Of a stretch of DNA of 64,000 bases, positions 25,296-46,726 are shown piece by piece (position 1 is the first letter of the stretch; every line of letters begins with the position of its first letter). The stretch is taken from positions 1 to 64,000 of the IMG/VR virus record IMGVR_UViG_3300008267_000265; one strand, written 5' to 3'. A model generated the notes under the pieces. It was not told where the DNA came from and made no database searches. It was given only the letters and a program-made list of their open reading frames with translations. Source of the stretch: a virus. Made by a program: the position numbers and the translations under genes.

Positions 25296-25310
25296 ACGTA
25301 TACCTTTTAA

Positions 25311-25318
25311 ATAAATAG
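25311..25318 (-). promoter_or_regulatory. late-promoter-like motif before phoH
   Basis: The minus strand reads AAACTATTTATTTAA, 15 bases upstream of the phoH ATG at 25295 and just downstream of the terminator at 25334-25355. Confidence 0.45.
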
Positions 25319-25333
25319 TTTATACTACCAAAT

Positions 25334-25355
25334 AAAAAAGCCCCCATGTGGAGGC
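25334..25355 (-). terminator. rho-independent terminator after the 462-residue fibre gene
   Basis: The minus strand forms GCCTCC, loop ACAT, GGGGGC (one T-G wobble), followed by six T. It sits 25 bases after the stop of the gene at 25380. Confidence 0.8.
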
Positions 25356-25379
25356 TTCTATATTATTCTTGTTTTTAAA

Positions 25380-30602: not shown

Positions 30603-31160
30603 TTACTTAAGATTTGTTAAAAAGTTTTTTACTATCTGTGTTAGTTTTGGCGCACTGTGTTCGCTAATTGCTTGTAAAATCTCACTACTTGATTCACCTG
30701 CAAGGTCTTTTATTGCTGCTACTGCACTGTCTAGTTTGGTTAGGTCTACTGCTCCTAAAACTGCCATACTTGCCAATGTTATTGCTTTTAAAAATTTAGC
30801 AACTTTGTCTCTCTTCGTTTGATCGGGTATGAATGGGCGAAGCATTAGTTTGAAAGGGGTGTCTAAATAGCCGTCTATTTTAGCAGTTACTTTTTCTATA
30901 GTTTTATACCAACTTGGACTTTTCCTCTTTTTTAAATCGATGCCACTTTTCTTAGCGATTACATCCACGACCTTCATAACCGCATTAATAATACCCGGTG
31001 CTGCTAGTACAAGTGCGGTAGCACCTAGTATTGATTCATTCTCTTGCTTTGAAGCTTTTTCTAGCTCCTTACCTATTAAATCAGGAAGGTCCCTCAAGTC
31101 TGATAAATCGATGGAGTTTTCTTCTTGTATTTCTTTTAGTATATTAACAAACTTAATCAC
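30603..31160 (-). CDS. head-region protein with capsid-targeting-like leader, unknown
   Basis: A 185-residue protein. It begins M-I-K-F-V-N-I-L-K-E, which aligns without gaps to the T4 internal-protein leader MKTYQEFIAE. Two hydrophobic helices follow (about 45-65, A-T-A-L-V-L-A-A-P-G-I-I; and 130-145), and a basic middle. I recognise no family. It lies between the 115-residue gene and the capsid gene, within the protease-capsid cluster, so an internal head or core protein is plausible. A membrane-active protein delivered with the DNA is an alternative. Confidence 0.55.
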   Translation of the reverse strand: MIKFVNILKEIQEENSIDLSDLRDLPDLIGKELEKASKQENESILGATALVLAAPGIINAVMKVVDVIAKKSGIDLKKRKSPSWYKTIEKVTAKIDGYLDTPFKLMLRPFIPDQTKRDKVAKFLKAITLASMAVLGAVDLTKLDSAVAAIKDLAGESSSEILQAISEHSAPKLTQIVKNFLTNLK

Positions 31161-31171
31161 TCTTAAAACAA

Positions 31172-31519
31172 TTAAGCTTTTACGTTTTTCATAGTTCTGG
31201 TAAAGTTTGCGTTCGTTGTCTTAGCTATACCAGAGATACTTGCTTTACTACCTTTTTCTACGAATTGCTTGATAAAATCATACAACGCTACTGCTTCTTT
31301 AGGATCAAGATCCATTTTTATTTGACCCGTACCTATATTTTTAAGGTATAATTTAAGGGTCGCTGAGTTTGTTACTACTGGTTCTTCTTTCGCACCAACA
31401 GCTGCTGGCTCTTGTTCTATGCTACCGTTTGTTTCTTCCATTGATGCTTGGTACTCACCTTCTGTTATAAGCCCAGCTTTTAACTGCATTAATTTTGCTT
31501 CTTTGATTAAGTTTGCCAT
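31172..31519 (-). CDS. small head-region protein with LIKEAKxMQ leader, unknown
   Basis: A 115-residue protein starting M-A-N-L-I-K-E-A-K-L-M-Q-L-K-A-G-L-I-T-E, nearly the same leader as in the genes at 42371, 43305 and 43828. A disordered acidic stretch follows. The C-terminal half (about 50-115: T-L-K-L-Y-L-K-N-I-G-T to the end) looks like a compact domain. It sits directly after the prohead protease gene, consistent with a protease substrate. Function unknown. Confidence 0.55.
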   Translation of the reverse strand: MANLIKEAKLMQLKAGLITEGEYQASMEETNGSIEQEPAAVGAKEEPVVTNSATLKLYLKNIGTGQIKMDLDPKEAVALYDFIKQFVEKGSKASISGIAKTTNANFTRTMKNVKA

Positions 31520-31534
31520 TGTGCTATTTAGTTT

Positions 31535-32164
31535 TTATTTTAAACAACAGACTCCTGACTGGGTACAGATGATGTCTGAGATTAATCTGTCAATCCCTGC
31601 ACGTCTATTGTTGTTTATTTGTGGATTATAGCTTTCATTTAAGCCTCCTACTGGTTTTACATATGCTCCATAAGTTGATGGAGTGGATACGAAATCCCAG
31701 CAAATTAATTCCAAATCCTCCTCAACTTGAACAAGACCTTCACCAATTGGTGTTACAGATCCCATTGCTCTTGATGATACACCAACATTAATTCCTGCTA
31801 GGAATAATTCTTTTAATATGTTTCCAGATGGAGTGTCTAAGATTTCAAATTCACCAAACAATTCTTTTCCTTCCCACCACAGTCTTGTAATATTGTGACA
31901 AACGTTCTTTAAGTTGATCACAGAGGTTTCTGGGTGATCTAATTCACCTAGAGCTCTTTTTTCTTTAACCGGACCTTCCATGTAGAGTTCTACTTGTTTG
32001 TGGAGCGTTGGATAGCTGTAGATACGTTTATTTGCATTAGGCATGTCCGCTGCCTGCACCTTACCGGATACTAAGAAAGGAGCTCTTGGATTCACTCTAG
32101 CTTCATGCAACTGCTTAGGCAGTGGCTTGAAGGTCATGTATTCTATTAAGACTTCTTTGCTCAT
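31535..32164 (-). CDS. gp21: prohead core protease (T4 gp21-like)
   Basis: A 209-residue serine protease of the herpesvirus-type prohead protease fold. Landmarks are N-A-N-K-R-I-Y-S-Y-P (about 43-52), the catalytic histidine in L-D-H-P-E (His77), the G-V-S-S-R-A-M-G-S serine motif (Ser130/131), and W-D-F-V-S-T-P-S-T-Y-G-A-Y. The length is as in T4 gp21. It matures the head by cutting scaffold, capsid and internal proteins after a hydrophobic-x-Glu sequence. It lies upstream of the scaffold-capsid fusion in one cluster. Confidence 0.85.
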   Translation of the reverse strand: MSKEVLIEYMTFKPLPKQLHEARVNPRAPFLVSGKVQAADMPNANKRIYSYPTLHKQVELYMEGPVKEKRALGELDHPETSVINLKNVCHNITRLWWEGKELFGEFEILDTPSGNILKELFLAGINVGVSSRAMGSVTPIGEGLVQVEEDLELICWDFVSTPSTYGAYVKPVGGLNESYNPQINNNRRAGIDRLISDIICTQSGVCCLK

Positions 32165-32165
32165 G

Positions 32166-33905
32166 TTATACTTGAGTTTCTTCTCCTGTTTTAGTGTTTA
32201 TTACCTTAAGTCGATCCTTTGTTGTTGCTGTTATCTGCTTACCTTTTTTTATAGCATCTGCTACAGTTGGTCCTGAGTAGATTGGTGTCGATTGTGTTGT
32301 AGTATTTCCAACTTGACCTGTTGCAAGAATAGCTCCTTCCTCTACTTCCTTTTTAACAAACTTCATCAACTTCTCTTTGATAGCTTTTAGCTTATCTTCT
32401 CTGCTCATCTCTTCTTTCTGTGCAAGAGGTGGTGCATTCTTTATGAAATCAGATTGATAGTTAGGTAGCTTTGGTCTTGGAGCTGCGTCTGAGTGTTTTA
32501 AGAAATTTGGTTGAAAATCTCTTTCTTCACCTGTCGTATCTAATTTAACAGTGGCTGTATGTCCATCGAATTTAGTTATCTCTCCTGCAAACCTTCCGTC
32601 ATTAGTCTCCACTCTATGTCCGGTTTGGAATTGTTTTTTTATTGGGTTTTCCACTGTCAAATCTTCCATGATATGCTCTTTGAGAGCTAGTACTTTTTCT
32701 TTGCCAGGAACTTCCATTACTTGAGCAATTCCTTTAGATTTTTTTGGAGTTTGAGTCATGTGCTTAAGTCCTTCTCCGTTTTTGCTTTTAGCTCTTTCTT
32801 TCTTTCCTAAATTATCTTGAACATTTCCTTTTGCATCTTTTTCAACAACTTTCATTCCGTTTGCCTTATCAACCATGTTATCTTTTTTAACTGGTTGCAT
32901 TCTAAGGTCTTTATCTTTCTTCTCGATATCCTTAACGTTGGCAATTACTAAGTCTCTGTAGGCGTTAGGATCTTTTACAAGATTCTTAACAGCTTTTTGC
33001 TTAGCTTTTACCAATGCCTCATCTGTAATCTCTCCCATCTTAGAAAGCTCGTATTGTAGACCTTTCATTAGTTGGTTGTAGTTTACATGATCAGCTCCTG
33101 GAAATACATCGTATTCTGCTTTGCCAGTTACCTCTTTATATTTTCCTTCTGATTTTTTAACTGCTTCGTTTAGGGATCCTTGTAGAGATTGGTTAAGTGC
33201 CGTTATGTAATCCGATGGCCAATCTTCGTCAGCAAGGCCGTATGTTAAGTTTTTAACAACTACTTGTTCCATTTTAGCATCAATCATCATATTAAAAGCG
33301 TGATTAAGTGCAGCGTGTTCAAATTCTTTGTAGCCTTCGCTCTTTTTCTGTTTTAATTCTTTGCCATGCTTCTTTGCTACTGCTTTAGCTAGGATTTCCG
33401 GATTGCGGAAAGTTTGGTTTGGAGTTGATCCCGGTACTGCTTCGTTAAATCTATCTGCACTTACTTCTGGATCAGCACCTGGATTGCTTGGATCGTGATG
33501 GCTTTGTTTTGATGCCATTTGCGACACCATTTCACTTTCAGCTCTTTTCACAATCTCGCTAGCATCTCCCATAAACGCTCTAGCAGCAAACGGTGATTGC
33601 ATCATTCCATACATATCAACTAATCCATGATCTCCTAAATATCTCATAGCTGCTTCCGCCTCTTCTTTCTTTTCAGGTGATAGGTTTGCTGCTTGGATAT
33701 CCTGCTTAAAGGTATCTAACCATTGAGTGTTCCCTTCGTGGCTTTCATTCAAAATCCTCTTACTCTTCAAGATATTCACGGCATCGTTAAACGAGTTACC
33801 AGAGGAAATCCACTGAGGGAAGTCTCTGCGTATGTTTACCATGAAATTGGTTTTTGACATTTTACCTTCTAAGAGGTCTTGGTACTGTGCTTGTATGTTC
33901 TTCAT
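32166..33905 (-). CDS. large head-region protein, unknown
   Basis: A 579-residue, Lys/Glu-rich, mostly helical protein just upstream of the protease. The first 60 residues contain Y-Q-D-L-L-E-G and S-K-R-I-L-N-E-S, both possible protease sites. Around 425-475 is a short beta domain (T-G-H-R-V-E-T-N-D-G-R-F-A-G-E-I-T-K-F-D-G) with the look of a KOW/SH3-like fold. The last 40 residues are Thr/Lys-rich. A core or internal head role is inferred from position. The ATG at 33905 is only 4 bases from a promoter motif. A second ATG at 33860 (M-S-K-T-N-F), preceded by AGAAGG, could be the real start. Confidence 0.55.
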   Translation of the reverse strand: MKNIQAQYQDLLEGKMSKTNFMVNIRRDFPQWISSGNSFNDAVNILKSKRILNESHEGNTQWLDTFKQDIQAANLSPEKKEEAEAAMRYLGDHGLVDMYGMMQSPFAARAFMGDASEIVKRAESEMVSQMASKQSHHDPSNPGADPEVSADRFNEAVPGSTPNQTFRNPEILAKAVAKKHGKELKQKKSEGYKEFEHAALNHAFNMMIDAKMEQVVVKNLTYGLADEDWPSDYITALNQSLQGSLNEAVKKSEGKYKEVTGKAEYDVFPGADHVNYNQLMKGLQYELSKMGEITDEALVKAKQKAVKNLVKDPNAYRDLVIANVKDIEKKDKDLRMQPVKKDNMVDKANGMKVVEKDAKGNVQDNLGKKERAKSKNGEGLKHMTQTPKKSKGIAQVMEVPGKEKVLALKEHIMEDLTVENPIKKQFQTGHRVETNDGRFAGEITKFDGHTATVKLDTTGEERDFQPNFLKHSDAAPRPKLPNYQSDFIKNAPPLAQKEEMSREDKLKAIKEKLMKFVKKEVEEGAILATGQVGNTTTQSTPIYSGPTVADAIKKGKQITATTKDRLKVINTKTGEETQV

Positions 33906-33909
33906 ACTT

Positions 33910-33917
33910 ATAAATAG
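33910..33917 (-). promoter_or_regulatory. late-promoter-like motif abutting the 579-residue gene
   Basis: The minus strand reads AAACTATTTATAAG directly before the ATG at 33905. If this is a -10 element the first ATG would be leaderless, which is a reason to consider the later ATG at 33860. Confidence 0.4.
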
Positions 33918-33919
33918 TT

Positions 33920-34051
33920 TTAGCGACCTTGGCCGCGGTATGTTTTCTCTGTTCTATTGTGCTTATTTCTTGACTTTGCTGCCTTACCTGACTTTCTTTT
34001 TCCGAAAGTGATTTTTGTGGCTGATCCTGCTGATGATTTTGTCTTTGCCAT
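33920..34051 (-). CDS. 43-residue basic protein
   Basis: A short frame starting at 34051 and stopping at 33920. It encodes M-A-K-T-K-S-S-A-G-S, then a very basic stretch with F-G-K-R-K-S-G-K-A-A-K-S-R-N-K-H-N and an end Y-R-G-Q-G-R. It fills the gap between two head-region genes, and its composition resembles DNA- or RNA-binding tails. Very small basic proteins of this type occur in T4-like structural clusters, but I cannot give a function. The overlap with the downstream promoter motif is minimal. Confidence 0.6.
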   Translation of the reverse strand: MAKTKSSAGSATKITFGKRKSGKAAKSRNKHNRTEKTYRGQGR

Positions 34052-34059
34052 TTTATAAA

Positions 34060-34680
34060 CTAGATTGCGTATTTTTTAAGATAGTTTTGTATTTTACTTG
34101 GTACAGTTGCGTTATCAGTACCCAAATCTACGTAGCCTCCTCCTTTGAGAATACCTTCCACACTTTGTGTTCGTCCTGAAGAATCTTTTTTGTTTCTAGC
34201 TGTAACTCTCTTAGTTGCTGGAAAGAATACTAGTTCGTAGTTGATTTGTCTTGATCCATTCTGTGTAAAGCCCTGCACGTCAAATTCAATGCGGTTAAAC
34301 TTAGGGTCATTCTTGTCTGGGGTTATAACTAATCCTCCAATAGCTTCACCGTCCGTAAGTGCGTCTCCTTGAGAGCCACTCCCATCATCTTCGTACATAC
34401 GACCAAACGGCTCATCTCCACCAAAATCATCATCTCCCATTTCAAAATCACCTGTTAAATCTTCTCCGTAGATGCTATTTACAATCATTTTAGCTTTGAT
34501 TGGATCGATACCGGATACTTCTAATTCTTCAGCTGCATCTTCTGCAGTTGCTCCATCCAACTTTGCTTGTCTAGCTATTTTATGAGCTGTTGAATCCATT
34601 CCTTCTTTTACTACAGCCTTACTGTAAGCTCCTAATTTATTTTCCATTAGGAATTTCTTAAAATCAAAATTGTCTGCCAT
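34060..34680 (-). CDS. head-region protein with FLMEN leader, unknown
   Basis: A 206-residue protein. It starts M-A-D-N-F-D-F-K-K-F-L-M-E-N, a spacing of hydrophobic residues and Glu like capsid-targeting leaders. A helical UBA-like region (about 35-70: A-E-D-A-A-E-E-L-E-V-S-G-I-D-P) and an acidic linker follow. The C-terminal 85 residues are a beta domain (I-E-F-D-V-Q-G-F-T-Q-N-G-S-R-Q-I-N-Y-E-L-V-F-F-P). The start overlaps the upstream stop. I recognise no family; packaging or core function is inferred. Confidence 0.55.
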   Translation of the reverse strand: MADNFDFKKFLMENKLGAYSKAVVKEGMDSTAHKIARQAKLDGATAEDAAEELEVSGIDPIKAKMIVNSIYGEDLTGDFEMGDDDFGGDEPFGRMYEDDGSGSQGDALTDGEAIGGLVITPDKNDPKFNRIEFDVQGFTQNGSRQINYELVFFPATKRVTARNKKDSSGRTQSVEGILKGGGYVDLGTDNATVPSKIQNYLKKYAI

Positions 34681-35750
34681 TAGTTTAAGTGTTTTAGTTT
34701 TTTATATGCTTCTGCTATTTTTGTTTTTAGTTTATCCATTGATTTAGCTGTACGAGCCTTTACTTCTAACGTTTCTTCTCCTTCTGATAATTCCTCTTTC
34801 ATTCTGGTTGTAAACTCTAGTATTCTATTTACTTCGTCTAGCTTTTTATTTACAGCTTTGATTGCTTCGTGGTATTGATCCTGCTTTGGACGTATTTTTG
34901 TTTCTTTTTTGAAGCGGTTGTAGTTTTCTTGAATGCCTGCTTTTGCTGCTGCGTCTACTACATCACTATATGTATGTGGTGCTAAATCCATTTCAAGAGC
35001 GTATTTAATTTTCTCATACACAGATTCATTCTTTTCTTTTATCTTACTAAGTAGCTGTAGTATTTTTTTGTAGTCTGGTTTATACCAAGTTTCTTCCAGT
35101 TCCTCGCTCATTGCAGTTGGTTTCGTATCCCACAAATCATCTACATCAATGCTTTTTAATTTTGGATGACCCTCTGTTTTCTTAAATCCGTCTTGTGTAT
35201 ATGTGCTGATATCTGCTTTGCCTGCTGCAAGCATTGGAGCGTCCTCGTTAACTGACTTGATTTCTTCGCCTTTATTTAGTATGTTAGTTGCTTTTGTTAA
35301 GCCGGTACCTTTGTTATAGGATACGTTGTAATTCCACCTACCCATCATATCTTTCTCAACTTTTGTAATTACTGCAGGATGTCCGAGATACGCCACTTTC
35401 TGACCTACTTTAAACATGGGGCTATCACTACCTTCTTCCATCTTTTTTCTGCCCGTCATCTGCTCACCATTATTTGTTCCACTTGACCAGCTTGCTCCGT
35501 TTGTTACTCCGCCACCTGTAGTTGATCCAACACCCATTCCATCCTCACTTAATCCAGTTGTTGCTTTGCAGATTTCAATAGCTTTTTCAAAATCAATTAC
35601 ATGATCTGCTGCTGCTTTTGCTAACATGGTAGCAGCATCTTTATTAGCTCCACAGTATCTTACAAGATAATCTACCATCTTCTGGCGGAAGGCTTCTTTG
35701 TCTGCATCGAACTCCTCCAATAAAAACTGCGTTGCAAATTGATTATTCAT
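34680..35750 (-). CDS. head-region protein with FLLEE leader, unknown
   Basis: A 356-residue protein with an N-terminal M-N-N-Q-F-A-T-Q-F-L-L-E-E, possibly a protease-cleaved leader. A segment at about 110-155 (F-K-V-G-Q-K-V-A-Y-L-G-H-P-A-V-I-T-K-V) looks like a small SH3-type beta barrel. The C-terminal 150 residues are charged coiled coil. It lies between the portal-proximal protein and the FLMEN protein, all with overlapping stop and start codons. Composition fits a prohead core constituent. Confidence 0.55.
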   Translation of the reverse strand: MNNQFATQFLLEEFDADKEAFRQKMVDYLVRYCGANKDAATMLAKAAADHVIDFEKAIEICKATTGLSEDGMGVGSTTGGGVTNGASWSSGTNNGEQMTGRKKMEEGSDSPMFKVGQKVAYLGHPAVITKVEKDMMGRWNYNVSYNKGTGLTKATNILNKGEEIKSVNEDAPMLAAGKADISTYTQDGFKKTEGHPKLKSIDVDDLWDTKPTAMSEELEETWYKPDYKKILQLLSKIKEKNESVYEKIKYALEMDLAPHTYSDVVDAAAKAGIQENYNRFKKETKIRPKQDQYHEAIKAVNKKLDEVNRILEFTTRMKEELSEGEETLEVKARTAKSMDKLKTKIAEAYKKLKHLN

Positions 35751-36601
35751 TATTTGATGGCTTTAAGCTCATTTACTAATTGATAGTACTGCATAAGACC
35801 GATCAAAACTTCATCTTTTATAGATTCGTTAGGACCGATTGGCTTTACGAAGTTTAGTACTTCGTTTAATTTTATCTGTAGTACTTTGTCTTGTGCTTTA
35901 TCTTTCAAGCTACTTAGCTCTACTTTTACTTCAATTAGTTTTGTATTCAGATAGCTTCTTAGTTGCTTTGTATCTGATATATTGTTGATGTACTCTTTTA
36001 GTAGGTCCTTCTGCTCTGCAGATAGGGTTGAGTATTTATCGTTAAACTTTTCTACTAATATTTTGTAAGCCAGTACTCTGATTTCTTTATCCTCTTTCAT
36101 GAACTCCTCAACAACTTTAGATGCTACTTTTCTTTCGGTGAGAGTTTCTTTTGTGATATGTTCTAGGAGGGTTAGTTTGTTTGTTACAATCTGCTTTGTG
36201 TCTGTTGCACTTCTAGCAATTGTTGCTTCAATTAGAGTGTATACTGATGCGTAAACTTTGTAAGCGTCGATCTTTGCTTTGAAGAAATTGTCGAGGTCGT
36301 AGTTCTTTTTAACCTCTTTTATTAGATTATACTTCTCTTTATCTAGCTTTTCTCTATCAAGTTTCTTTGCTTGCTCTGTAATCGTTGATATTAAAATATC
36401 AGCTTTAGTTTCGTTTAATTTCGGAGCGTTTAATACTGTGTTGTACAAGTCGTACTCCTTACTGAGTTCGGTATTTGTAAAGTATTTCTTGAAGATTTTT
36501 ACGGCTACTGGGTTCTTGTTTGACATTAGATCCGAGGTTGCTTGCCTCACTAATAATTCAAATAATATTCCAGTATTTTTGTATTTGCTGTGCTTTATCA
36601 T
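35750..36601 (-). CDS. conserved portal-adjacent helical protein, unknown
   Basis: A 283-residue, almost fully helical, Lys/Glu-rich protein beginning M-I-K-H-S-K-Y-K-N-T-G-I-L-F-E-L-L-V-R-Q. This start is familiar from uncharacterised proteins next to portal genes in distant T4-like marine phages. It has no catalytic motif. A role in prohead core assembly is likely from position and composition. A promoter motif precedes it. Confidence 0.6.
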   Translation of the reverse strand: MIKHSKYKNTGILFELLVRQATSDLMSNKNPVAVKIFKKYFTNTELSKEYDLYNTVLNAPKLNETKADILISTITEQAKKLDREKLDKEKYNLIKEVKKNYDLDNFFKAKIDAYKVYASVYTLIEATIARSATDTKQIVTNKLTLLEHITKETLTERKVASKVVEEFMKEDKEIRVLAYKILVEKFNDKYSTLSAEQKDLLKEYINNISDTKQLRSYLNTKLIEVKVELSSLKDKAQDKVLQIKLNEVLNFVKPIGPNESIKDEVLIGLMQYYQLVNELKAIK

Positions 36602-36618
36602 TGCGTTTTAGCTTACTT

Positions 36619-36626
36619 ATAAATAT
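36619..36626 (-). promoter_or_regulatory. late-promoter-like motif after the portal gene
   Basis: The minus strand reads AGATATTTATAAG, 18 bases upstream of the ATG at 36601. Confidence 0.4.
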
Positions 36627-36633
36627 CTGTGTA

Positions 36634-38580: not shown

Positions 38581-38585
38581 ATTTT

Positions 38586-38593
38586 ATAAATAT
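38586..38593 (-). promoter_or_regulatory. late-promoter-like motif abutting the portal start
   Basis: The minus strand reads AGATATTTATAAAAT followed at once by the portal ATG. The close spacing suggests either a leaderless transcript or a role for the motif in translation. Confidence 0.4.
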
Positions 38594-38605
38594 CTTTTGT
38601 CTGTA

Positions 38606-40081: not shown

Positions 40082-40113
40082 TTATTTAGGTTATAACCTA
40101 CGAGTGTTTATTA

Positions 40114-40121
40114 ATAAATAG
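40114..40121 (-). promoter_or_regulatory. late-promoter-like motif before terL
   Basis: The minus strand reads TAGCTATTTATTAAT, 33 bases upstream of the terL ATG at 40081. Confidence 0.45.
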
Positions 40122-40127
40122 CTAGAA

Positions 40128-40376
40128 TTAGAAGTCAAAGTTTGTTGGCTCCACTGCTGCAAACATCTTATCCTGTGCTACAAGCGCTAACCAGTCGTTT
40201 TTGCTGTACTTAATTCCGTTTACATAATACTCAGGTTGCAACCCTTCTGATTCTGGGTAGGTTATAGCCGGTCCTTCCAAGGAATGTGGCTTTGCATTTT
40301 CTCCAACCCTTTGTGTATAGGTAATTGTTTTACCGCATACAGTTGTCATTGTTTTGTTAATAATTGCTGCTCTCAT
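40128..40376 (-). CDS. 82-residue protein upstream of terL, unknown
   Basis: A small protein with an N-terminal M-R-A-A-I-I-N-K-T and a middle Y-Y-V-N-G-I-K-Y-S-K-N-D-W-L-A-L. I recognise no family. It lies in the place where a small terminase subunit could be expected, but it is shorter than typical TerS proteins and lacks an obvious helix-turn-helix. It follows a terminator, so it needs its own promoter; none of the repeated motifs is visible in the preceding 60 bases. Confidence 0.45.
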   Translation of the reverse strand: MRAAIINKTMTTVCGKTITYTQRVGENAKPHSLEGPAITYPESEGLQPEYYVNGIKYSKNDWLALVAQDKMFAAVEPTNFDF

Positions 40377-40437
40377 ATCGATTTGTTTATACTAATAATA
40401 TAGTTCCTTTTATTGGTATTTCCAACAATAAAATAAG

Positions 40438-40461
40438 AAAACCCAAGCTTACAGGCTTGGG
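40438..40461 (-). terminator. rho-independent terminator
   Basis: The minus strand forms CCCAAGC, loop CTGTAA, GCTTGGG, followed by TTTTCTTATTTTATTG. It ends the transcript of the small-gene cluster before terL. Confidence 0.85.
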
Positions 40462-40504
40462 CTTGCACCTATGGTCTAGATAGGCTGTCCTAGGGTAGCA
40501 GGAC
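40442..40504 (-). ncRNA. three consecutive stem-loops, candidate structured RNA
   Basis: Reading the minus strand from 40504: GTCCT-(8-base loop)-AGGAC, two bases, CCTAT-(7-base loop)-ATAGG, six bases, CCCAAGC-(6-base loop)-GCTTGGG, then the T tract. The last hairpin is the terminator. The first two have perfect 5-base stems and no coding sense, as they lie after the stop codon of the gene ending at 40512. It could be a structured 3' end that protects the mRNA or a small RNA released from it. No known RNA family is recognised and it is not a tRNA. Confidence 0.35.
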
Positions 40505-40511
40505 GATTATT

Positions 40512-40979
40512 TTATGATTCAGTCTCACCTGCTGTTTCTTCTGCTGGTGTTGGTTCTTCTTCTGCTGCTTCTGGTTCAGATGTTTGCTCTTCTCCTTCTG
40601 GTCCTTTTGTTGTGATTGGGTTACCCAATGCAAGCAGTCTTGCTATTGCATTTATACACCTCTCTTTCTCACCGATTGTACGAAGATAAAACTTCTTACC
40701 AGCCACTGTTGCTTCGTATGCTTTTTCTAAGAAAGTTAGTAGATATTCTTGGTCGTTGTGTAAAGCAATTTTGAAAGTTGTTGGCTTTGGTGCAATGATG
40801 TAGATACCCGTAACGTAATCTTTGAAGGCTGGTGTCATCAACATCTCTAATGTGTGGTTGAGAGTTGGATACTTTTTAAGAATAAAAGCGATTGGATTAT
40901 CCTCAAATGATTGTACATTCGGTTCCATCCTCTCCACTTCATTCAATATCAGTCTTCTTATAATTGCTTTATTGTTCAT
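40512..40979 (-). CDS. small-cluster protein with LILNE leader, unknown
   Basis: A 155-residue protein. I place the start at 40979 (M-N-N-K-A-I-I-R-R-L-I-L-N-E), one base after the upstream stop; the longer frame would overlap the preceding gene. The leader ends in a candidate protease site (L-N-E/V). The middle has K-I-A-L-H-N-D-Q-E-Y-L-L-T-F-L and Y-L-R-T-I-G-E-K-E-R-C-I-N-A-I-A. The C-terminal 35 residues are almost all Glu, Pro, Thr and Ala. Function unknown; packaging into the head is an inference from the leader. Confidence 0.55.
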   Translation of the reverse strand: MNNKAIIRRLILNEVERMEPNVQSFEDNPIAFILKKYPTLNHTLEMLMTPAFKDYVTGIYIIAPKPTTFKIALHNDQEYLLTFLEKAYEATVAGKKFYLRTIGEKERCINAIARLLALGNPITTKGPEGEEQTSEPEAAEEEPTPAEETAGETES

Positions 40980-40980
40980 A

Positions 40981-41511
40981 TTAATATCCTTTTTCTTGAG
41001 CTCTGCGTTTAGAATAATCTGAAGCATACTCCTTTTCGTCATCTTCTATTTCAGAGTCGTATCCTACCTCATCAATAAACTCTTGTAGTTCTCCTAGTGC
41101 CTGCAGCAGTCCTTGTTTATCTGCTGTAGAAATATTTGAATTGGTTGAGATATTTCTCATTAAGTTACGGACGGTGGTGTCAGCGGCCTGTACTTTTTTT
41201 AAATCCACAGATTCAGCTACCACAGCAAATCCCGGTGTTGGTTGCTGCATTGCTCCCATTTCGTGTTGCTTTCCAATCATATACTCAGCTACTGAGTGCA
41301 TATAGTCAGCTGCTAAACTAATGTATGCTGAAACCCATCCTGGAAGTTCATCTCCTGGTTGGATGATGTTTTGTAGTTTTGATGCGTTTGAGATCATATC
41401 TCTCAATTCGCTGTCAGCCATTGAAGCTTCGTGATCGTGTCCGTGAGTGTAATCGGTGCCTTGTCTTTCGCAGTCTCCGCACTCGTTTAGTAAGTTAGCT
41501 AATCTGATCAT
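40981..41511 (-). CDS. small-cluster protein with MIRLANLLNE leader, unknown
   Basis: A 176-residue protein. The start at 41511 (M-I-R-L-A-N-L-L-N-E-C) is preferred because upstream codons would translate the promoter motif at 41525-41532. The leader aligns with the neighbouring M-I-K-L-T-D-L-L-S-E and with the T4 internal-protein leader. A Cys/His-rich patch (C-G-D-C-E-R-Q and H-G-H-D-H-E) near the N-terminus could bind metal. The rest is helical, ending in an acidic region. No family recognised. Confidence 0.55.
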   Translation of the reverse strand: MIRLANLLNECGDCERQGTDYTHGHDHEASMADSELRDMISNASKLQNIIQPGDELPGWVSAYISLAADYMHSVAEYMIGKQHEMGAMQQPTPGFAVVAESVDLKKVQAADTTVRNLMRNISTNSNISTADKQGLLQALGELQEFIDEVGYDSEIEDDEKEYASDYSKRRAQEKGY

Positions 41512-41524
41512 TACTGTGTTTTTA

Positions 41525-41532
41525 ATAAATAG
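41525..41532 (-). promoter_or_regulatory. late-promoter-like motif in the small-gene cluster
   Basis: The minus strand reads TAAACTATTTATTAA, 14 bases upstream of the chosen ATG at 41511. Confidence 0.45.
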
Positions 41533-41533
41533 T

Positions 41534-41881
41534 TTACTTGTGTTTAATAAGTAATTCACCTAGAACCTCAATCTTACCAACTATCTCCTGAAAGCGGATC
41601 TGAGATATGTCCATCTCTTTGCTGGTGGCTTTGTGTAGTTTCTTGAGTAGTTCTTTGTATTCTTTTTCTGCTCTCTCGATATCAAACTTACCTTCTGCTG
41701 CCTTTTTATAGTATGGCTCTTTTACTTTGAAGTGATGCCAGGTTAGTAGTGCTAGACCACCTTTATCGTGGGCATTATCAGCAATCTTAGCAGCTCCTTT
41801 GCCACGTGTCTCTGCAAAGTCTTCGAAGGTGTCTTTTACTTCTTTCTTTGCTTCGCTTAGTAGGTCGGTTAGTTTTATCAT
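41534..41881 (-). CDS. small-cluster protein with MIKLTDLLSE leader, unknown
   Basis: A 115-residue helical, Lys/Glu-rich protein. The ATG at 41881 overlaps the stop of the membrane protein gene (TAATG), so translation is probably coupled. The first eleven residues M-I-K-L-T-D-L-L-S-E-A align position by position with the T4 internal-protein leader M-K-T-Y-Q-E-F-I-A-E-A, with cleavage expected after Glu10. The remainder has a central W-H-H-F-K-V-K-E-P-Y-Y-K-K-A and no known domain. Confidence 0.55.
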   Translation of the reverse strand: MIKLTDLLSEAKKEVKDTFEDFAETRGKGAAKIADNAHDKGGLALLTWHHFKVKEPYYKKAAEGKFDIERAEKEYKELLKKLHKATSKEMDISQIRFQEIVGKIEVLGELLIKHK

Positions 41882-42243
41882 TAGAATAAGTTGGCTACGG
41901 TTAAATTGATAATAAGTGCTATAAAGAATATCATCCAAGCCTGGTTGATTTGTGGTTTAACTCCATCCTCATCGAAGTTACCAATGTGATACGGTCTTGT
42001 TTTAAAATTAGAGAATCCCATTGTTAATCCAGCTCCAATAAATGCAAATAGATATGCTAATACCACATACCACATTTGATGATCCTTGTCTGCAAATAAG
42101 ATTGGAAACGGTATACCTACTCCTATTACTATGACTGGTATTAGAGCAAGTAGTGGGGATAGTATAAAAAAGGATAGACAGTATATTACTGTCCCCGCTA
42201 TGAAATGGTTTGCTTTGTCGGCTGCTATAATTAGTTTTGTCAT
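41881..42243 (-). CDS. small membrane protein
   Basis: A 120-residue protein with about four hydrophobic segments: residues 14-30 (F-I-A-G-T-V-I-Y-C-L-S-F-F-I-L), 31-50, 57-76 (M-W-Y-V-V-L-A-Y-L-F-A-F-I-G-A-G) and 103-120. The start M-T-K-L-I-I-A-A-D-K-A-N-H-F-I-A-G resembles small YfiM-like or VanZ-like phage membrane proteins with a D-K-x-x-H-F-x-A-G motif. Its function is unknown; lysis or envelope remodelling is possible. It overlaps both neighbours by 1-4 bases. Confidence 0.55.
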   Translation of the reverse strand: MTKLIIAADKANHFIAGTVIYCLSFFILSPLLALIPVIVIGVGIPFPILFADKDHQMWYVVLAYLFAFIGAGLTMGFSNFKTRPYHIGNFDEDGVKPQINQAWMIFFIALIINLTVANLF

Positions 42244-42350
42244 GCTTTTAATTTCTTCAAGATCGCATTATTTTGATCTATCTGCTTTTGTTTTTTGATA
42301 CCACTTCTTTTTGATTTCATTGGTACCTTTTTTAATTTTGCTCTTGCCAT
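42240..42350 (-). CDS. 36-residue basic protein
   Basis: A frame from the ATG at 42350 to a TGA at 42240 encodes M-A-R-A-K-L-K-K-V-P-M-K-S-K-R-S-G and ends N-A-I-L-K-K-L-K-A. The stop overlaps the start of the membrane-protein gene as ATGA, a classic coupling arrangement that supports a real gene. It is very basic and has no recognised family. Confidence 0.5.
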   Translation of the reverse strand: MARAKLKKVPMKSKRSGIKKQKQIDQNNAILKKLKA

Positions 42351-42370
42351 TTGTGGAAGCTCTTTATTAT

Positions 42371-42667
42371 TTATCCTTGTTGCATTAGCTTTTTCATGTA
42401 CGCTCTAGCATCTTGAAGATCATCTATATCTATAGTCGCTTTAATGTGTGCACGTAGTTCATCATCACTAAGCGGTGTCATATCTAGGCGCTCACGTGGC
42501 GAAAAGGCTTGTTTAAAAGCAGGTGTGTTTCTGTTCATTACTATAAAGTCAATATCTTCATCACTACCCTCTTTAAAGCCATAGCCTCCAAATTCGTTCA
42601 ACTGTGATTCTTTAATCAATCCAGCTAATTGCTGCATTCTTTTTGCTTCGTTTATTAGTTTTTTCAT
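42371..42667 (-). CDS. small protein with LINEAKRMQQLAG leader
   Basis: A 98-residue protein starting M-K-K-L-I-N-E-A-K-R-M-Q-Q-L-A-G-L-I-K-E. The same leader is found in the gene at 43305 and, more loosely, in those at 43828 and 31172, although the rest of each protein is unrelated. Here the body is acidic with a C-terminal helical region (D-D-E-L-R-A-H-I-K-A-T-I-D). No known domain. Two candidate protease sites lie in the leader (LINE/A and LIKE/S). Confidence 0.55.
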   Translation of the reverse strand: MKKLINEAKRMQQLAGLIKESQLNEFGGYGFKEGSDEDIDFIVMNRNTPAFKQAFSPRERLDMTPLSDDELRAHIKATIDIDDLQDARAYMKKLMQQG

Positions 42668-42670
42668 ATT

Positions 42671-43288
42671 TTACCATGCTCTGCAGGACCAGTAGTTTGC
42701 TTTCCATCTTGGTCCAGGGTTTTGACAATGGTGTCTTGCTCTATAGGATTTTCTACGAGCTGGGATGTTCTTTTTTATTTTCATGTTAGGATCACCGAAG
42801 TTCACCTTAACAACGTTTCCTTTTGCATTCTTAACGTATACCGATCTTTTCTTGGGTCCGCCTGGTGTTAGGAATGGTTTACCTAGCTTTACTTTGCGAC
42901 CTCTATACTCTGCTTCTTCTAGCTTGTGTTCGTATTCTAATAGATACTCTATCATGCACTCTGTACAGAAGCTATCTGTCTCGTCCATTGCATTTATTCT
43001 ATCCGCTGCTTGTTTTGCTTTTTTAAAAGCTTCTGATCCTTTGCGGGCAGGCTTTTCGCCACGGGCTTGCTTAGCTCTGATGTTTGCCCATAGACCTTTT
43101 AAAGCCTCTTCAACATCAGCTTTTGGATCGTGAAACTCATCATGGGCGTCGTGATTCATTGTATGCATTTCATTTGCTCTTCTTGCACAGCTTCTCTCTC
43201 CTTTTAAATAAGGGGTTGGGCACGATGTTCCTTTTACGTGAACGTGCCCACATCTACCACAGCATGTACCTTTCTTTTCGTCTAGCAT
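42671..43288 (-). CDS. zinc-binding protein with DUF5872-like C-terminus
   Basis: A 205-residue protein. The N-terminal 40 residues have C-C-G-R-C-G-H-V-H-V-K-G-T-S-C and a further Cys, suggesting metal binding. A middle F-C-T-E-C-M motif could be another half-site. The last 85 residues (E-Y-R-G-R-K-V-K-L-G-K-P-F, K-K-R-S-V-Y-V-K, N-F-G-D-P-N-M-K-I, R-H-H-C, W-S-C-R-A-W) match the pattern I know from DUF5872-type domains in phages and large viruses, whose function is unknown. It sits in the cluster of small leader-bearing genes. Confidence 0.6.
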   Translation of the reverse strand: MLDEKKGTCCGRCGHVHVKGTSCPTPYLKGERSCARRANEMHTMNHDAHDEFHDPKADVEEALKGLWANIRAKQARGEKPARKGSEAFKKAKQAADRINAMDETDSFCTECMIEYLLEYEHKLEEAEYRGRKVKLGKPFLTPGGPKKRSVYVKNAKGNVVKVNFGDPNMKIKKNIPARRKSYRARHHCQNPGPRWKANYWSCRAW

Positions 43289-43304
43289 TGCTCTTTAGTT
43301 ACTA

Positions 43305-43607
43305 CTATCCTATAATCCGGTTAACATCATTCACAAGATTTCGATCTACGTCAACTGTGCTCCAGTCTGAAAAGTCGATTTCACTATCTATACGCGCTTC
43401 AGGATCTTCTTGAGAAGATAGTTCTTTTTGAGAGAGATCAAATGAAATAGAGTATTCGTTATCTAACATGTCGACTAGTGTATCTATTTTACCGTTGTTA
43501 TAAGCTTTCTTTAGAGCGTTTTTAAAAAATCTCTCAGTAGTTCCTTCACCTTCTTTCAAGATTCCAGCTAATTGCTGCATTCTTTTTGCTTCGTTGATTA
43601 GTTTCAT
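43305..43607 (-). CDS. small protein with LINEAKRMQQLAG leader
   Basis: A 100-residue protein starting M-K-L-I-N-E-A-K-R-M-Q-Q-L-A-G-I-L-K-E-G. It shares 13 consecutive residues with the leader of the gene at 42371. The body is different, with F-F-K-N-A-L-K-K-A-Y-N-N-G and an acidic C-terminus containing D-F-S-D-W-S-T-V-D-V-D. Candidate protease sites are LINE/A and ILKE/G. Function unknown. Confidence 0.55.
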   Translation of the reverse strand: MKLINEAKRMQQLAGILKEGEGTTERFFKNALKKAYNNGKIDTLVDMLDNEYSISFDLSQKELSSQEDPEARIDSEIDFSDWSTVDVDRNLVNDVNRIIG

Positions 43608-43633
43608 ATTAATGTAAGAATTTTAGTTTGTAC

Positions 43634-43828
43634 TTAGTTGATATAGCCTCTAACGATTCCGTATCTACCTTGGAAACTTTCTACCAAACCGTCTGCTAAA
43701 TCAACGATTTCATCGTAGAAGGTATTCAATGCTGCGTGAGCTGCAAATGAAGTTGTCTGTAGGTGAAAGATGTGAGCTTGTGTGCGTGATGCAAACAGCG
43801 TGCTGATGAATTGTGCGTATTGTTCCAT
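43634..43828 (-). CDS. 64-residue protein, unknown
   Basis: A small protein (M-E-Q-Y-A-Q-F-I-S-T-L-F-A-S-R-T start) with a mostly helical layout and no leader motif. Its ATG overlaps the stop of the upstream leader-bearing gene. No family recognised. Confidence 0.45.
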   Translation of the reverse strand: MEQYAQFISTLFASRTQAHIFHLQTTSFAAHAALNTFYDEIVDLADGLVESFQGRYGIVRGYIN

Positions 43829-44169
43829 TATTTTTTATCTTTATTTTCTGGTAATCCGTATGGGATGCCTAGTATGCTGTGTACAACACTTCTAAACATT
43901 TTTTGCGACTCTACTTGAAATGCTTTTAATAGTAAATCCTGTAGTACTTTATTGCCTACTAACAGTGGTATTTTATGGTTTTCTGGACCGTGGTAGAAAG
44001 CGCTTATTTCAAGTTTTAATTTATTGTTATCATCCACGTATAATCTAACAGATGGCACGTCGTCTACCTGCTCCGGGTCAGCGGGTTCATCTATTTGATT
44101 AAACTCCTCCTCACCAACAATACCTGCTAGTTCTTGTAATCTTCTTGATTCGTTGATTGATTGTTTCAT
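43828..44169 (-). CDS. small protein with INESRRLQELAG leader
   Basis: A 113-residue protein starting M-K-Q-S-I-N-E-S-R-R-L-Q-E-L-A-G-I-V-G-E, a variant of the leader at 42371 and 43305. The body has V-R-L-Y-V-D-D-N-N-K-L-K-L-E-I-S-A-F-Y and a helical C-terminus. Candidate protease sites are SINE/S and IVGE/E. It overlaps both neighbours at start and stop codons. Function unknown. Confidence 0.55.
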   Translation of the reverse strand: MKQSINESRRLQELAGIVGEEEFNQIDEPADPEQVDDVPSVRLYVDDNNKLKLEISAFYHGPENHKIPLLVGNKVLQDLLLKAFQVESQKMFRSVVHSILGIPYGLPENKDKK

Positions 44170-44783
44170 TACTCCTCTTCTTTTTCGATTTCTTTTTTAG
44201 ATGCCTCAACCCTTTGATGCTTACTGCGGAGCTCTGCGATTCTTTGTAGCATTTCTTGTGCTTTCATGTCATTACCCTCATCCATGCAGCGATTAACTTC
44301 TTTTTGCAGTTTCTTAATTGTTTCTTCAATTTTAGAAATTACTGTATGCTTCTTATCTTCGATTTCTTTTAGTTTATTTTGGATAGCTGCAATAAGCTGG
44401 TCAGCTGTTTTTACAGCTTTTGACTCCTCTTTGTAAATGCCGATTACCTCTTCCTCGTACAAGCCACCTCTAACCTGATTTGCAAAGTGTAATACGTTTG
44501 ACTCAAACACGATATCTTCCATTGTTGATCCTTCGTTTGGTCTAGTCACTACCCAAAAACTTCCAACTTCGTCTACCATTTCAGGCTGCTGGGCTTCTTC
44601 AATAGACTCATTTACGTGTTTTGGTAATCCTTTGTGCTTTGTAGATGCTACTTTTTCTAATTCTTTTTTAGACATCTTAGCCATTGATTTAGCTGCGCCT
44701 TTAAGATCTGTTGTTTTTCCTTTTTTCTTAGCTGCTAAAGCTGCTCCTGCTGCTTGTTGTTGTGCTTTTGATACTGCTGGCAT
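44169..44783 (-). CDS. DUF3008-like protein with coiled-coil extension
   Basis: A 204-residue protein from the ATG at 44783. The N-terminus M-P-A-V-S-K-A-Q-Q-Q-A-A-G-A-A-L-A-A-K-K-K-G then S-K-K-E-L-E-K-V-A-S-T-K-H-K-G-L-P is the pattern of the small DUF3008 family, normally about 60 residues. Here it is extended by a beta-rich middle (about 70-110) and a long charged coiled coil. An upstream ATG at 44816 would translate the promoter motif and is rejected. DUF3008 has no settled function. Confidence 0.6.
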   Translation of the reverse strand: MPAVSKAQQQAAGAALAAKKKGKTTDLKGAAKSMAKMSKKELEKVASTKHKGLPKHVNESIEEAQQPEMVDEVGSFWVVTRPNEGSTMEDIVFESNVLHFANQVRGGLYEEEVIGIYKEESKAVKTADQLIAAIQNKLKEIEDKKHTVISKIEETIKKLQKEVNRCMDEGNDMKAQEMLQRIAELRSKHQRVEASKKEIEKEEE

Positions 44784-44784
44784 G

Positions 44785-44910
44785 TTATTGTGAGTTATTT
44801 TGATTATAAATATCAAGTTTCTTAAGTTCAGCTATACGCTCTTTTACCTGTTGGTATATAGCTTTCTTGTCTCCTCCTCCCCATTTCTCTACTTCTCCAG
44901 CTGATGACAC
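44785..44910 (-). pseudogene. displaced 3' part of the zinc-ribbon gene (other frame)
   Basis: Overlapping the end of the gene at 44828, in the +1 frame, are 41 codons from a GTG to a TAA one base before the next gene. They read S-S-A-G-E-V-E-K-W-G-G-G-D-K-K-A and then an amphipathic helix A-I-Y-Q-Q-V-K-E-R-I-A-E-L-K-K-L. Proteins I know as homologues of this zinc-ribbon gene in other T4-like phages end with a similar G-x-V-E-x-W-x-G plus helix. This piece therefore looks like the true C-terminus, displaced by a frameshift or internal deletion. A small independent gene is the alternative. Confidence 0.4.
44806..44813 (-). promoter_or_regulatory. late-promoter-like motif before the DUF3008-like gene
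   Basis: The minus strand reads TGATATTTATAATC, 23 bases upstream of the ATG at 44783. It also lies inside the displaced frame at 44785-44910, so one of the two readings may be fortuitous. Confidence 0.35.
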
Positions 44911-45229
44911 AGTCAAAACAGGTTTTGTGGATGTTCCACATTTTCTTCTCAATATCGTGCGTTTTCATAAGACCCCCACAATTAGGACAGGAGAGAGGCA
45001 TTAAAACTAGTTCTTTGATCTTATCGAGTTTGGTAACTGTCTGCTTTATGCCGCTCTTGATAGTCCATTTCTTGCCACCCTCTTCCCAGATATCACCTTC
45101 TCCGTAGCTCTTCTTCTCTTTTTCCCAGCCAGCTTGCAGTTGTGTTGCATCTCCTGTGTTACCTGTGATGATGTTTCTCATTCTTTGCACATCTCTTGGT
45201 GCAAATTCTTTCTTTAAATTATTGTCCAT
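44828..45229 (-). CDS. zinc-ribbon protein, apparently truncated
   Basis: A 133-residue protein. Residues 40-70 (E-G-D-I-W-E-E-G-G-K-K-W-T-I-K-S-G-I-K-Q) and the zinc ribbon C-P-N-C-G-G ... H-K-T-C-F-D-C match a conserved but uncharacterised protein of T4-like phages. After the last Cys pair the frame turns Arg-rich (G-R-R-R-Q-E) with AGG and AGA codons and stops early. A better family-like C-terminus lies in the +1 frame (44785-44910). I therefore read the gene as shortened or frameshifted. The zinc ribbon itself is intact. Confidence 0.55.
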   Translation of the reverse strand: MDNNLKKEFAPRDVQRMRNIITGNTGDATQLQAGWEKEKKSYGEGDIWEEGGKKWTIKSGIKQTVTKLDKIKELVLMPLSCPNCGGLMKTHDIEKKMWNIHKTCFDCVISWRSREMGRRRQESYIPTGKRAYS

Positions 45230-45249
45230 AACATTTTATTTTATTATTA

Positions 45250-46053
45250 TTATTCGTCGTCGTCTGGAAATAGTTGGTGTGCTTTGCTTGTATCGATTTT
45301 CATGAATTTATTTACATCCTTTGGATCAGCTATGACATAGAATAAGCCGTCTTGCTCTTCTTCAGATGCTTTTCTTGTTCTGTGATTACCGTCTATCAAG
45401 ATCCACTCTGTCTTTTTTGATTCTGGATCTTCGAACTTTACTACGATTCCAATTGGCTTGCTGTAATCTATCTTCATAGCAGCTACCTTTGTAGGTTCTG
45501 CTACACTAAACTCAGGATGTGATAACTGCTTCATCATATATGGCTTGAATGGCTTAATGTTGCTTTTAACCTTTCCTGACTCAATCATTTGGTAAGCCCT
45601 TGTTACATCAAACAAATACCTACCGTTGTATGCTGAGAATATTTCATTTTCTGGTTTGATCTTAGCTTCGCTCATCATCTGCGATGACGCATCTAGATCA
45701 TAAACACTTAAATTCAGCTTACCGTAATCTCTCATTAAGATACCTGCCATCGCATTTGCTTCGTTCTCAATCTCCGATCCAGTATCACCTGAGTTAGTTG
45801 CGATCATACCAAGCTCGTTCTGTCTGTGGTGTACCAGTTCATGTGCCAAACTTCTACACACATCTGCTAAATTTCTGCCTGGGTAGTACAGTCTTATTTG
45901 GTTCTCATGCACACTATACTCACCGTATGATCTAAATTGCTCAACAAAGCTTCTATCATTTATCAGTTTAATCACAGGTAGCGACTGTATGTTTAACTCT
46001 TCTTTACAGTATCTAATAAAGTGTTTTATTATATCAAGCTTGTTTTGGTTCAT
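45250..46053 (-). CDS. zincin metallopeptidase fused to a ParB-like domain
   Basis: A 267-residue protein with two parts. Residues 1-110 have a zincin signature: S-L-A-H-E-L-V-H-H (H71-E-x-x-H75) and a downstream E-N-E-A-N (Glu98) as third ligand. Residues about 165-255 contain I-L-I-D-G-N-H-R-T-R-K-A, the D-G-N-H-R motif of ParB/sulfiredoxin-type nucleotide-binding domains. Between them is Q-M-M-S-E-A-K, similar to prohead-protease sites. The combination is unusual. Peptidase activity is well supported; the role of the second domain is open. The start overlaps the upstream nucleotidyltransferase gene. Confidence 0.65.
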   Translation of the reverse strand: MNQNKLDIIKHFIRYCKEELNIQSLPVIKLINDRSFVEQFRSYGEYSVHENQIRLYYPGRNLADVCRSLAHELVHHRQNELGMIATNSGDTGSEIENEANAMAGILMRDYGKLNLSVYDLDASSQMMSEAKIKPENEIFSAYNGRYLFDVTRAYQMIESGKVKSNIKPFKPYMMKQLSHPEFSVAEPTKVAAMKIDYSKPIGIVVKFEDPESKKTEWILIDGNHRTRKASEEEQDGLFYVIADPKDVNKFMKIDTSKAHQLFPDDDE

Positions 46054-46726
46054 TTGGTATAGGTGGTGCTTTAGGTATAGGTGGTGCTTCAGGTGTTGCT
46101 GGTTCAGCCGGTGCTGGTTCTTCTTGCGGTTCTGGTTGCTCTTCCGGTGGCTGAATTGTTGCTGTCAGCATTTGAAATATTTTTGGAGCGAATCCTTTAT
46201 TGTAAGCTGCTTCTGGGATTGTTGTTTTGAATCCCTCATAATCACGCTTTCTCAAAAGCTCTCTAACGTAGTACGAATTAACTCTACCATCCTTCTCCTG
46301 TACTGAGATTGTCTTTAGAATGTTTGGGTATCTTTGTCGTAGACTTTTCATGTATTCCTGATCATCCTTCTCATCTTCTCCTCCTGCTACGTAGATTGCT
46401 TTTAGATCCTCTTTACCTGCCAAGTATTTAAAGATATCTTCTACTGGACTATCCTCTTCGGCTATTCTTACTTTGATCTTTGGATTTGGTTCTGCCTTCA
46501 AAAACATCTTCCACACTTGCAGTGACTGCTCTGGTGTGAGGCCTTCTTCAGTTTTTCTGCTTATTATAACAACTACTTCTGTTATATAATTTCTGGATGT
46601 GAGATTTTTAGCAGCTTTAAAGTGACCTTTATGAGGTGGCTTGAAACCTGCTGGATAAAAGCAGATGCCTGCTTCGTTTACAATCTCTTCAACTATTAAT
46701 TTGGCTATTGATGTGTAGTCAATCAT
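46034..46726 (-). CDS. nucleotidyltransferase (cytidylyltransferase-like) with Pro-rich tail
   Basis: A 230-residue protein. Residues 20-32 (I-C-F-Y-P-A-G-F-K-P-P-H-K-G-H) carry the HxGH motif of the nucleotidyltransferase superfamily, which includes NMN adenylyltransferases and cytidylyltransferases. V-V-V-I-I-S-R-K-T and N-S-Y-Y-V-R-E-L-L-R match the later strand and the usual ISSTxxR region. The first 19 residues (I-A-K-L-I-V-E-E-I-V-N-E-A) form a leader like the capsid-targeting ones. The C-terminal 40 residues are Pro/Glu/Ala repeats. The substrate is unknown. Either NAD metabolism or delivery with the virion is possible. Confidence 0.7.
   Translation of the reverse strand: MIDYTSIAKLIVEEIVNEAGICFYPAGFKPPHKGHFKAAKNLTSRNYITEVVVIISRKTEEGLTPEQSLQVWKMFLKAEPNPKIKVRIAEEDSPVEDIFKYLAGKEDLKAIYVAGGEDEKDDQEYMKSLRQRYPNILKTISVQEKDGRVNSYYVRELLRKRDYEGFKTTIPEAAYNKGFAPKIFQMLTATIQPPEEQPEPQEEPAPAEPATPEAPPIPKAPPIPNEPKQA

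Follow-up and report, generated by a model that had tools for sequence, protein, structure and literature searches.

The window analysed here, 64,000 nucleotides long, comprises bases 1-64000 of the viral record IMGVR_UViG_3300008267_000265 (79,661 bases, hereafter G000). The genes for gp23, gp21, gp20 and gp17 mark it as part of a T4-like myovirus. The major capsid protein (MCP) gp23 was recognised by profile (PF07068, E 5.6e-74), as was the portal protein gp20 (PHROG 213, E 1.3e-66), and the terminase adjoining gp20 was assigned through homology to the terminases of relatives. By comparison of gp21, the closest cultured relatives were Flavobacterium phage immuto (45%) and Microcystis phage Mel-JY01 (44%). 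A set of small proteins in this window begins with short leaders that end in Glu, and in the original prediction these were read as capsid-targeting signals of the T4 kind. Here we describe the leaders, their occurrence in related contigs (L numbers) and genomes such as G032, G035, G038 and immuto, and the identity of one leader type with the C-terminal end of the core scaffold. The material included 80 related environmental loci.

Leaders, prohead protease and major capsid protein

Three open reading frames (ORFs) on the minus strand start with a leader of 10 residues, here called type 1, and their starts had been placed correctly in the original prediction. These are MIKLTDLLSE, with the predicted cut before A, on ORF 41534-41881 (leader at 41852-41881); MIRLANLLNE, followed by C, on ORF 40981-41511 (41482-41511); and MIKFVNILKE, followed by I, on ORF 30603-31160 (31131-31160), which has a GTG start. 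All three have an LxE ending at residue 10, like the T4 capsid-targeting sequence (CTS) MKTYQEFIAE. When aligned to the latter they carry, in the same order, L, L and F at position 4 and L, L and I at position 7, and MIKLTDLLSE has the hydrophobic residues at 4, 7 and 8 together with E10 as in T4. The leader of ORF 41534-41881 was kept in the orthologs of immuto, G032, G035 and G038. In T4 the CTS is found on the internal proteins IPI-III and Alt and is cut by gp21 (PMC9026906, PMC3012670); its residues 4 and 7 serve targeting, and residues 8 and 10 govern cleavage (PMC9026906).

The second type of leader, type 2, was the commonest of all; it has a length of about 20 residues and the consensus MKKQLLNEVKRMQKLAGILKE, and was found on five G000 proteins. 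Four of these lie in the window, likewise on the minus strand and with correctly placed starts: MKKLINEAKRMQQLAGLIKE on ORF 42371-42667 (42608-42667), MKLINEAKRMQQLAGILKE on ORF 43305-43607 (43551-43607), MKQSINESRRLQELAGIVGE on ORF 43828-44169 (44110-44169) and MANLIKEAKLMQLKAGLITE on ORF 31172-31519 (31460-31519), directly downstream of gp21. With a position-specific scoring matrix (PSSM, see below) they reached 40.7, 42.4, 23.0 and 19.0 bits, respectively. The fifth, MKQQINEAVRLKQLAGILSE, followed by M, lies outside the window on 78131-78562. The four leaders in the window were longer than first described, extending to LIKE, ILKE, IVGE and LITE, and thus they finish in much the same way as type 1. 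The leader of ORF 43828-44169 was kept in 8 homologs, several of them adjoining gp21. In related contigs the type 2 leader was found on 71 separate body clusters; its consensus is partly fixed by the search pattern, with R/K/Q at -10 constrained only by the looser extraction expression and E at -13 (57 of 71) free of the pattern. Past the leader the bodies were unrelated, as had been proposed, since BLASTP matches were limited to the leader residues themselves. Two further types, type 3 (on 7 body clusters in relatives) and type 4, MKKSELRQIIKEE, were distinguished.

The proposed gp21-like protease at 31535-32164 (minus strand) was confirmed as a gp21-type prohead protease (PF03420, E 3.6e-25; PHROG 207, E 4e-46). 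The blocks around H77 and S130/S131 (GEL(D/N)HP and GVSSR) are invariant with T4 gp21, and the N-terminal LIE8 aligns with LIE9 of T4. At about residue 20 of the gp21 N-terminus a second conserved LxE-like site precedes A, S or G (QLHE-A, LLTE-S, IIKE-S), which is possibly a further self-processing site. In the MCP the cleavage site AKQLVME-Q aligns with LTE65-A of T4 gp23 and has the same form as the leader endings. The MCP N-terminus of the relatives, MxNIQNLLES, resembles both the T4 gp24 propeptide MAKINELLRES and the type 1 leaders.

Specificity, genomic position and exchange of leaders

The PSSM for type 2 was trained on leaders from other contigs and applied to the full set of 922 proteins from five genomes. 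Scores of 19-50 bits were reached by 13 proteins, the next best score being 0.3, and the five G000 leaders, scored with this profile trained elsewhere, reached 19-42 bits. As controls, 9,220 shuffled N-termini gave no more than 5.8 bits, and internal windows did not exceed -1.3. A degenerate DNA pattern for QKxAGxx[KN]E, blind to position, matched at least 120 viral stretches, compared with 16 matches of a permuted pattern across the whole viral collection. Among the matches listed, no more than 25 residues separated the motif from the first start codon in 114 of 131 viral but only 11 of 104 bacterial cases, and the leader was thus not equally common in unrelated genomes; the near-start bacterial matches among those listed belonged to unrelated proteins, e.g. 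GTPases. Over all viral loci the RMQKLAG-type motif was N-terminal in 127 cases, within 12 residues of the C-terminus in 42 and elsewhere in 4, three of which were apparent fused or internally tagged proteins. Internal type 2 tags were seen in G035 67235-68569 (also L155 and L363) and in G038 104390-105406; the former carries two successive tags, as would be expected if a protein tagged at its C-terminus had been joined to one tagged at its N-terminus.

The position of the leader endings was followed along the genomes. In the head region of G000, 13 of 28 genes had a hydrophobic-hydrophobic-x-E ending within the first 24 residues (2.3-3.2 expected), compared to 3 of 46 tail-type genes (1.5-2.6 expected). 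Four genomes that were not those behind the original idea were then scored for the ending within 0-30 kb upstream of gp21, a region picked after data inspection, and elsewhere. The counts were 15/30 vs 22/181 in immuto, 20/44 vs 25/163 in G032, 17/38 vs 15/164 in G035 and 18/36 vs 29/179 in G038, which pooled gave 70/148 vs 91/687 (Fisher p 2e-18). The leader Glu was most frequent at positions 10, 12 and 20. Over residues 8-22 the ending occurred at 0.035 per residue inside the region vs 0.008 outside, and over residues 30-56, at 0.007 vs 0.006, it was back at background. The 131 early and middle genes of immuto were at background, with 15 matches where 14-17.6 were expected, and among these 15 a few look like real leaders (1803, 24569, 25061). 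Two of them, on immuto 1803-2318 (type 3) and 25061-25456 (type 2), are remote from the head cluster and have replication and small early genes as neighbours, a scatter reminiscent of the T4 ip genes.

The leaders might have arisen by chance, as Glu-ended N-termini after hydrophobic residues could be common and picked out by a reader, and in most genes the loose ending does occur at the background rate (the 91 of 687 above). The profile, the shuffles, the internal windows and the tail and early genes as controls all fall short of what was observed, and we regard chance as a highly improbable explanation of the whole set. It is contradicted for types 1 and 2, and is possible for the single looser cases at 8462, 40979 and 35750 (see below). 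The same positional data bear on whether the leaders are targeting or interaction helices for a partner outside the head, such as the tail, the host membrane or a host protein. They are short helices in which hydrophobic residues recur at regular intervals, and type 4-like starts are also found by baseplate genes. This explanation is nevertheless unlikely, given that the enrichment is strong beside head genes and not seen in tail regions, and that type 2 is identical to the scaffold C-terminus.

Homologous bodies were found behind different leader types. In the family of ORF 30603-31160, which has type 1 in G000, L054 carries type 2 and immuto 12294 type 4 on bodies with 64% identity (E 1e-75). 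In the family of ORF 40981-41511, L204 has a type 2 leader in place of the type 1 leader of G000 and L005 (E 1e-21 between L005 and L204). Immuto 13806 (type 3) is homologous to a type 2 protein of L132 (E 1e-25), and within a single genome, G032, the bodies at 105660 (type 1) and 387 (type 4) are homologous (E 2e-28). Thus the leaders are interchangeable modules. Shared starts of this kind could also be DNA-level cassettes, that is recombination hot spots or translation signals without function in the protein; genes with the same leader do lie side by side, and the leaders of G000 ORFs 42371-42667 and 43305-43607 have 90% DNA identity. Across body clusters, however, synonymous codons differ at 49% of the identical residues, so that conservation is at the protein level and not at the DNA level, and the motif is also found at scaffold C-termini, a location in which a 5' signal in the DNA would be meaningless. 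We consider such cassettes very improbable. Both chance and DNA cassettes were rejected on the basis of the shuffles, the internal windows, the permuted pattern and the codon comparison.

The type 2 leader and the scaffold C-terminus

In G000 the core scaffold (about residues 1-392) and gp23 are joined in a single ORF of 946 amino acids (27635-30475, minus strand; PF07068, E 5.6e-74), and in the closest relative, L003, they are separate ORFs. Compared to L003, G000 lacks about 80 bp near 29300, an in-frame deletion that takes out the stop of the scaffold, the spacer and the start of gp23; the fusion could be real or an assembly error. The scaffold ORF lies between gp21 and gp23, is acidic and contains L/I-x-E sites; in about 50 relatives it immediately precedes gp23. 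Residues 386-392 of the fused ORF (29300-29320, minus strand) form the scaffold C-terminal motif RWQVLAG, which is preceded by a cleavage-like PIVE and is near-invariant in about 46 relatives. The ORF in the gp22 position, next upstream of gp23, has the near-invariant end I(V/I)ExDxFVxRWQxLAGIK-COOH in 46 non-identical relatives, and the corresponding ends are SRWQKLAGIIK in immuto and ERMKKLAGIVK in Mel-JY01. In L094, L129, L184 and L197 the scaffold end is FARMQKLAGIIKEN, almost letter-for-letter the type 2 leader.

A hidden Markov model (HMM) built from the 46 scaffold ends only was run on 985 proteins. The top non-scaffold matches were type 2 leaders, at up to 15 bits, with the best unrelated match at 5.6; the leader of ORF 42371-42667 was matched, as was that of ORF 43305-43607 (iE 0.0024). 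The order of parts is reversed between the two, the scaffold consisting of body, cleavage-like IVE and helix, and the type 2 leader of helix, ILKE and body. With the RMQKLAG helix at the scaffold end and this reversed order, type 2 looks like a copied scaffold docking end plus a protease site, and from the sequences we infer that one cut would part the docking helix from the body in scaffold and cargo alike. Two cargo-like non-scaffold ORFs, L132 4451-5032 and L142 2711-3043, carry an RxQxxAGL(I) tag at the C-terminus.

The likeness to the scaffold end raises the question whether the tags serve docking during head assembly without being cut, so that the proteins would be minor core or scaffold components that do not reach the next host. 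Conservation in type 2 does centre on the docking helix, and the Glu is missing from some scaffold ends (LAGIK, LAGII). The leaders, in contrast, have a Glu at a place where most scaffold ends have none. This Glu closes every aligned type 2 leader, in part because the search pattern required it, and the leader ending matches the MCP cleavage site. AlphaFold2 (AF2) models of two G000 proteins agreed in a leader helix, a low-confidence stretch and a folded body; for ORF 43828-44169 (a weak model) the helix covered residues 2-14 and the low-confidence stretch 16-35. Such an arrangement, as modelled, would be expected of a processed propeptide. We therefore hold the uncut tag to be an improbable explanation, if somewhat less so than a partner outside the head.

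Probable capsid targeting, putative cargo and looser leaders

At the level of sequence, every consequence of capsid targeting that could be checked was borne out (the protease, the form of the ending, the enrichment near head genes, the exchange of leaders and the identity with the scaffold end), which supports this reading. The leaders are probably removable capsid-targeting tags, and the proteins that carry them would be taken into the head, trimmed there and delivered together with the DNA. While the head is being built, the tag would attach its protein to the core or the shell of the prohead. Once the head is assembled, gp21 would cut behind hydrophobic-hydrophobic-x-Glu and free the body within the head, and the freed body would enter the next host along with the DNA. 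The type 1 tag of about 10 residues may work like the CTS of the T4 internal proteins. The type 2 tag of about 20 residues would be a copy of the core-scaffold C-terminal helix and, being such a copy, probably occupies the docking site used by the scaffold end. It also appears likely, though with less confidence, that this T4-like clade loads dozens of proteins by scaffold mimicry, with a copy of the docking helix placed usually N-terminally and sometimes C-terminally and joined via a prohead-protease site, where one type of cut would clear the scaffold and free the cargo. T4-style capsid targeting is already known in kind; what appears to be new is the scaffold-end tag and how widely it is used, and no earlier description of such a tag was found in one open-access literature collection.

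Several observations weigh against capsid targeting. Type 4 is less specific than the other types, as an orthologous gene by baseplate genes opens similarly (G000 69733-70170, immuto 81525, G032 79958), and since this type 4-like helix opens a conserved gene there, such starts also occur outside the head genes. A number of type 2 genes are located at a distance from the head genes (G000 78131, immuto 25061, G032 147-148 kb). Leader contigs longer than 15 kb carried gp21 or gp23 in 15 of 42 cases, the remainder being fragments, and those longer than 58 kb did so in 7 of 7. The choice of the 30 kb region after data inspection also counts here, though the effect was large in every genome. The gp22 profile PHROG 237 matched T4 gp22 (E 1.6e-92) and none of the six scaffold ORFs tested, so that the scaffold role of this ORF rests on position, composition and conservation. 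A literature search for virion proteomics of any phage bearing these tags found none, and a 2020 paper on Baltic Flavobacterium phages made no mention of immuto, proteomics or mass spectrometry. In tblastn searches with short leaders against cultured phages only immuto matched.

The system resembles the T4 CTS in having a short N-terminal propeptide on unrelated bodies, an L/I-x-E end and a gp21-type protease, and type 1 has the same length, the E10 and the hydrophobic residues at 4, 7 and 8. It differs in that several leader families are present instead of one, on at least 71 body clusters and with a cargo known here from sequence, and in that type 2 is longer and has a motif identical to the scaffold C-terminus. 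Engineered scaffold fusions of P22 load cargo into virus-like particles (PMC9962691), and there too a scaffold with a C-terminal coat-binding element carries the fused cargo into the shell. The P22 fusions, however, are engineered and are not cut by a phage protease, whereas the tag described here is natural, N-terminal and has its own predicted cut site. The anti-restriction protein DarB of phage P1 is packaged through an N-terminal signal no longer than 30 residues (PMC9024508), similarly to the leaders; unlike these, the P1 Dar proteins have no common sequence, and a single substrate was tested. In the giant phages phiKZ and SPN3US a relative of gp21 cleaves many packaged proteins after x-x-E (PMC5694885), but the propeptides are mostly longer than 100 residues, end in A/S/G-x-E and lack a common leader. 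A leader of this kind would offer a sequence test for which small phage proteins travel with the DNA, and thereby candidates for first-strike or anti-defence proteins in aquatic phages; Flavobacterium is the host of at least one of these phages. It would further suggest a physical basis of capsid targeting, in which the cargo borrows the docking end of the scaffold, and a natural protease-released scaffold tag is a possible packaging tool.

Of the five looser leaders named in the original prediction, four proved real. On the minus strand, ORF 34060-34680 has the type 3 leader MADNFDFKKFLME (34642-34680, ending FLME). ORF 34680-35750 begins with the leader-like MNNQFATQFLLE (35715-35750, FLLE), which has no family-level support of its own, and ORF 40512-40979 with MNNKAIIRRLILNE (40938-40979, LILNE), both with a hydrophobic-hydrophobic-x-E end. 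On ORF 46034-46726 the leader-like extension MIDYTSIAKLIVE (46688-46726, LIVE) precedes a nucleotidyltransferase domain (PHROG 3041 cytidyltransferase, E 8e-7). The case at 8462 was doubtful, with IIAE at residues 23-26 and a tail-gene context. The hydrophobic-hydrophobic-x-E ending alone is too loose for calling single genes. A further ortholog of the baseplate-adjoining gene with a type 4-like starting helix was seen at G035 40006. A short hydrophobic-x-E extension before the catalytic motif of the nucleotidyltransferase was present in G000, G035, G032, L132 and Mel-JY01, with a different sequence each time, and was lacking in the nucleotidyltransferase of immuto; it is plausible from these sequences that the enzyme is a packaged internal protein.

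Most tagged bodies fall outside known families. Fold searches with two cargo models gave no significant match, and PADLOC on the cargo gave nothing clear. Among the proteins of relatives that are tagged or leader-like is an ADP-ribosyltransferase (ART-PolyVal, E 1.2e-8; G035 64055), which recalls the packaging of Alt by T4; others are two zeta-toxin/AAA_33 kinases, a 5'-nucleotidase and cytidylyltransferase-like enzymes. In several phages P-loop kinases of the zeta-toxin/AAA_33-like kind that carry type 1 leaders (G032 94552, G035 55476, L132 8278) were located close to leader-bearing nucleotidyltransferase genes.

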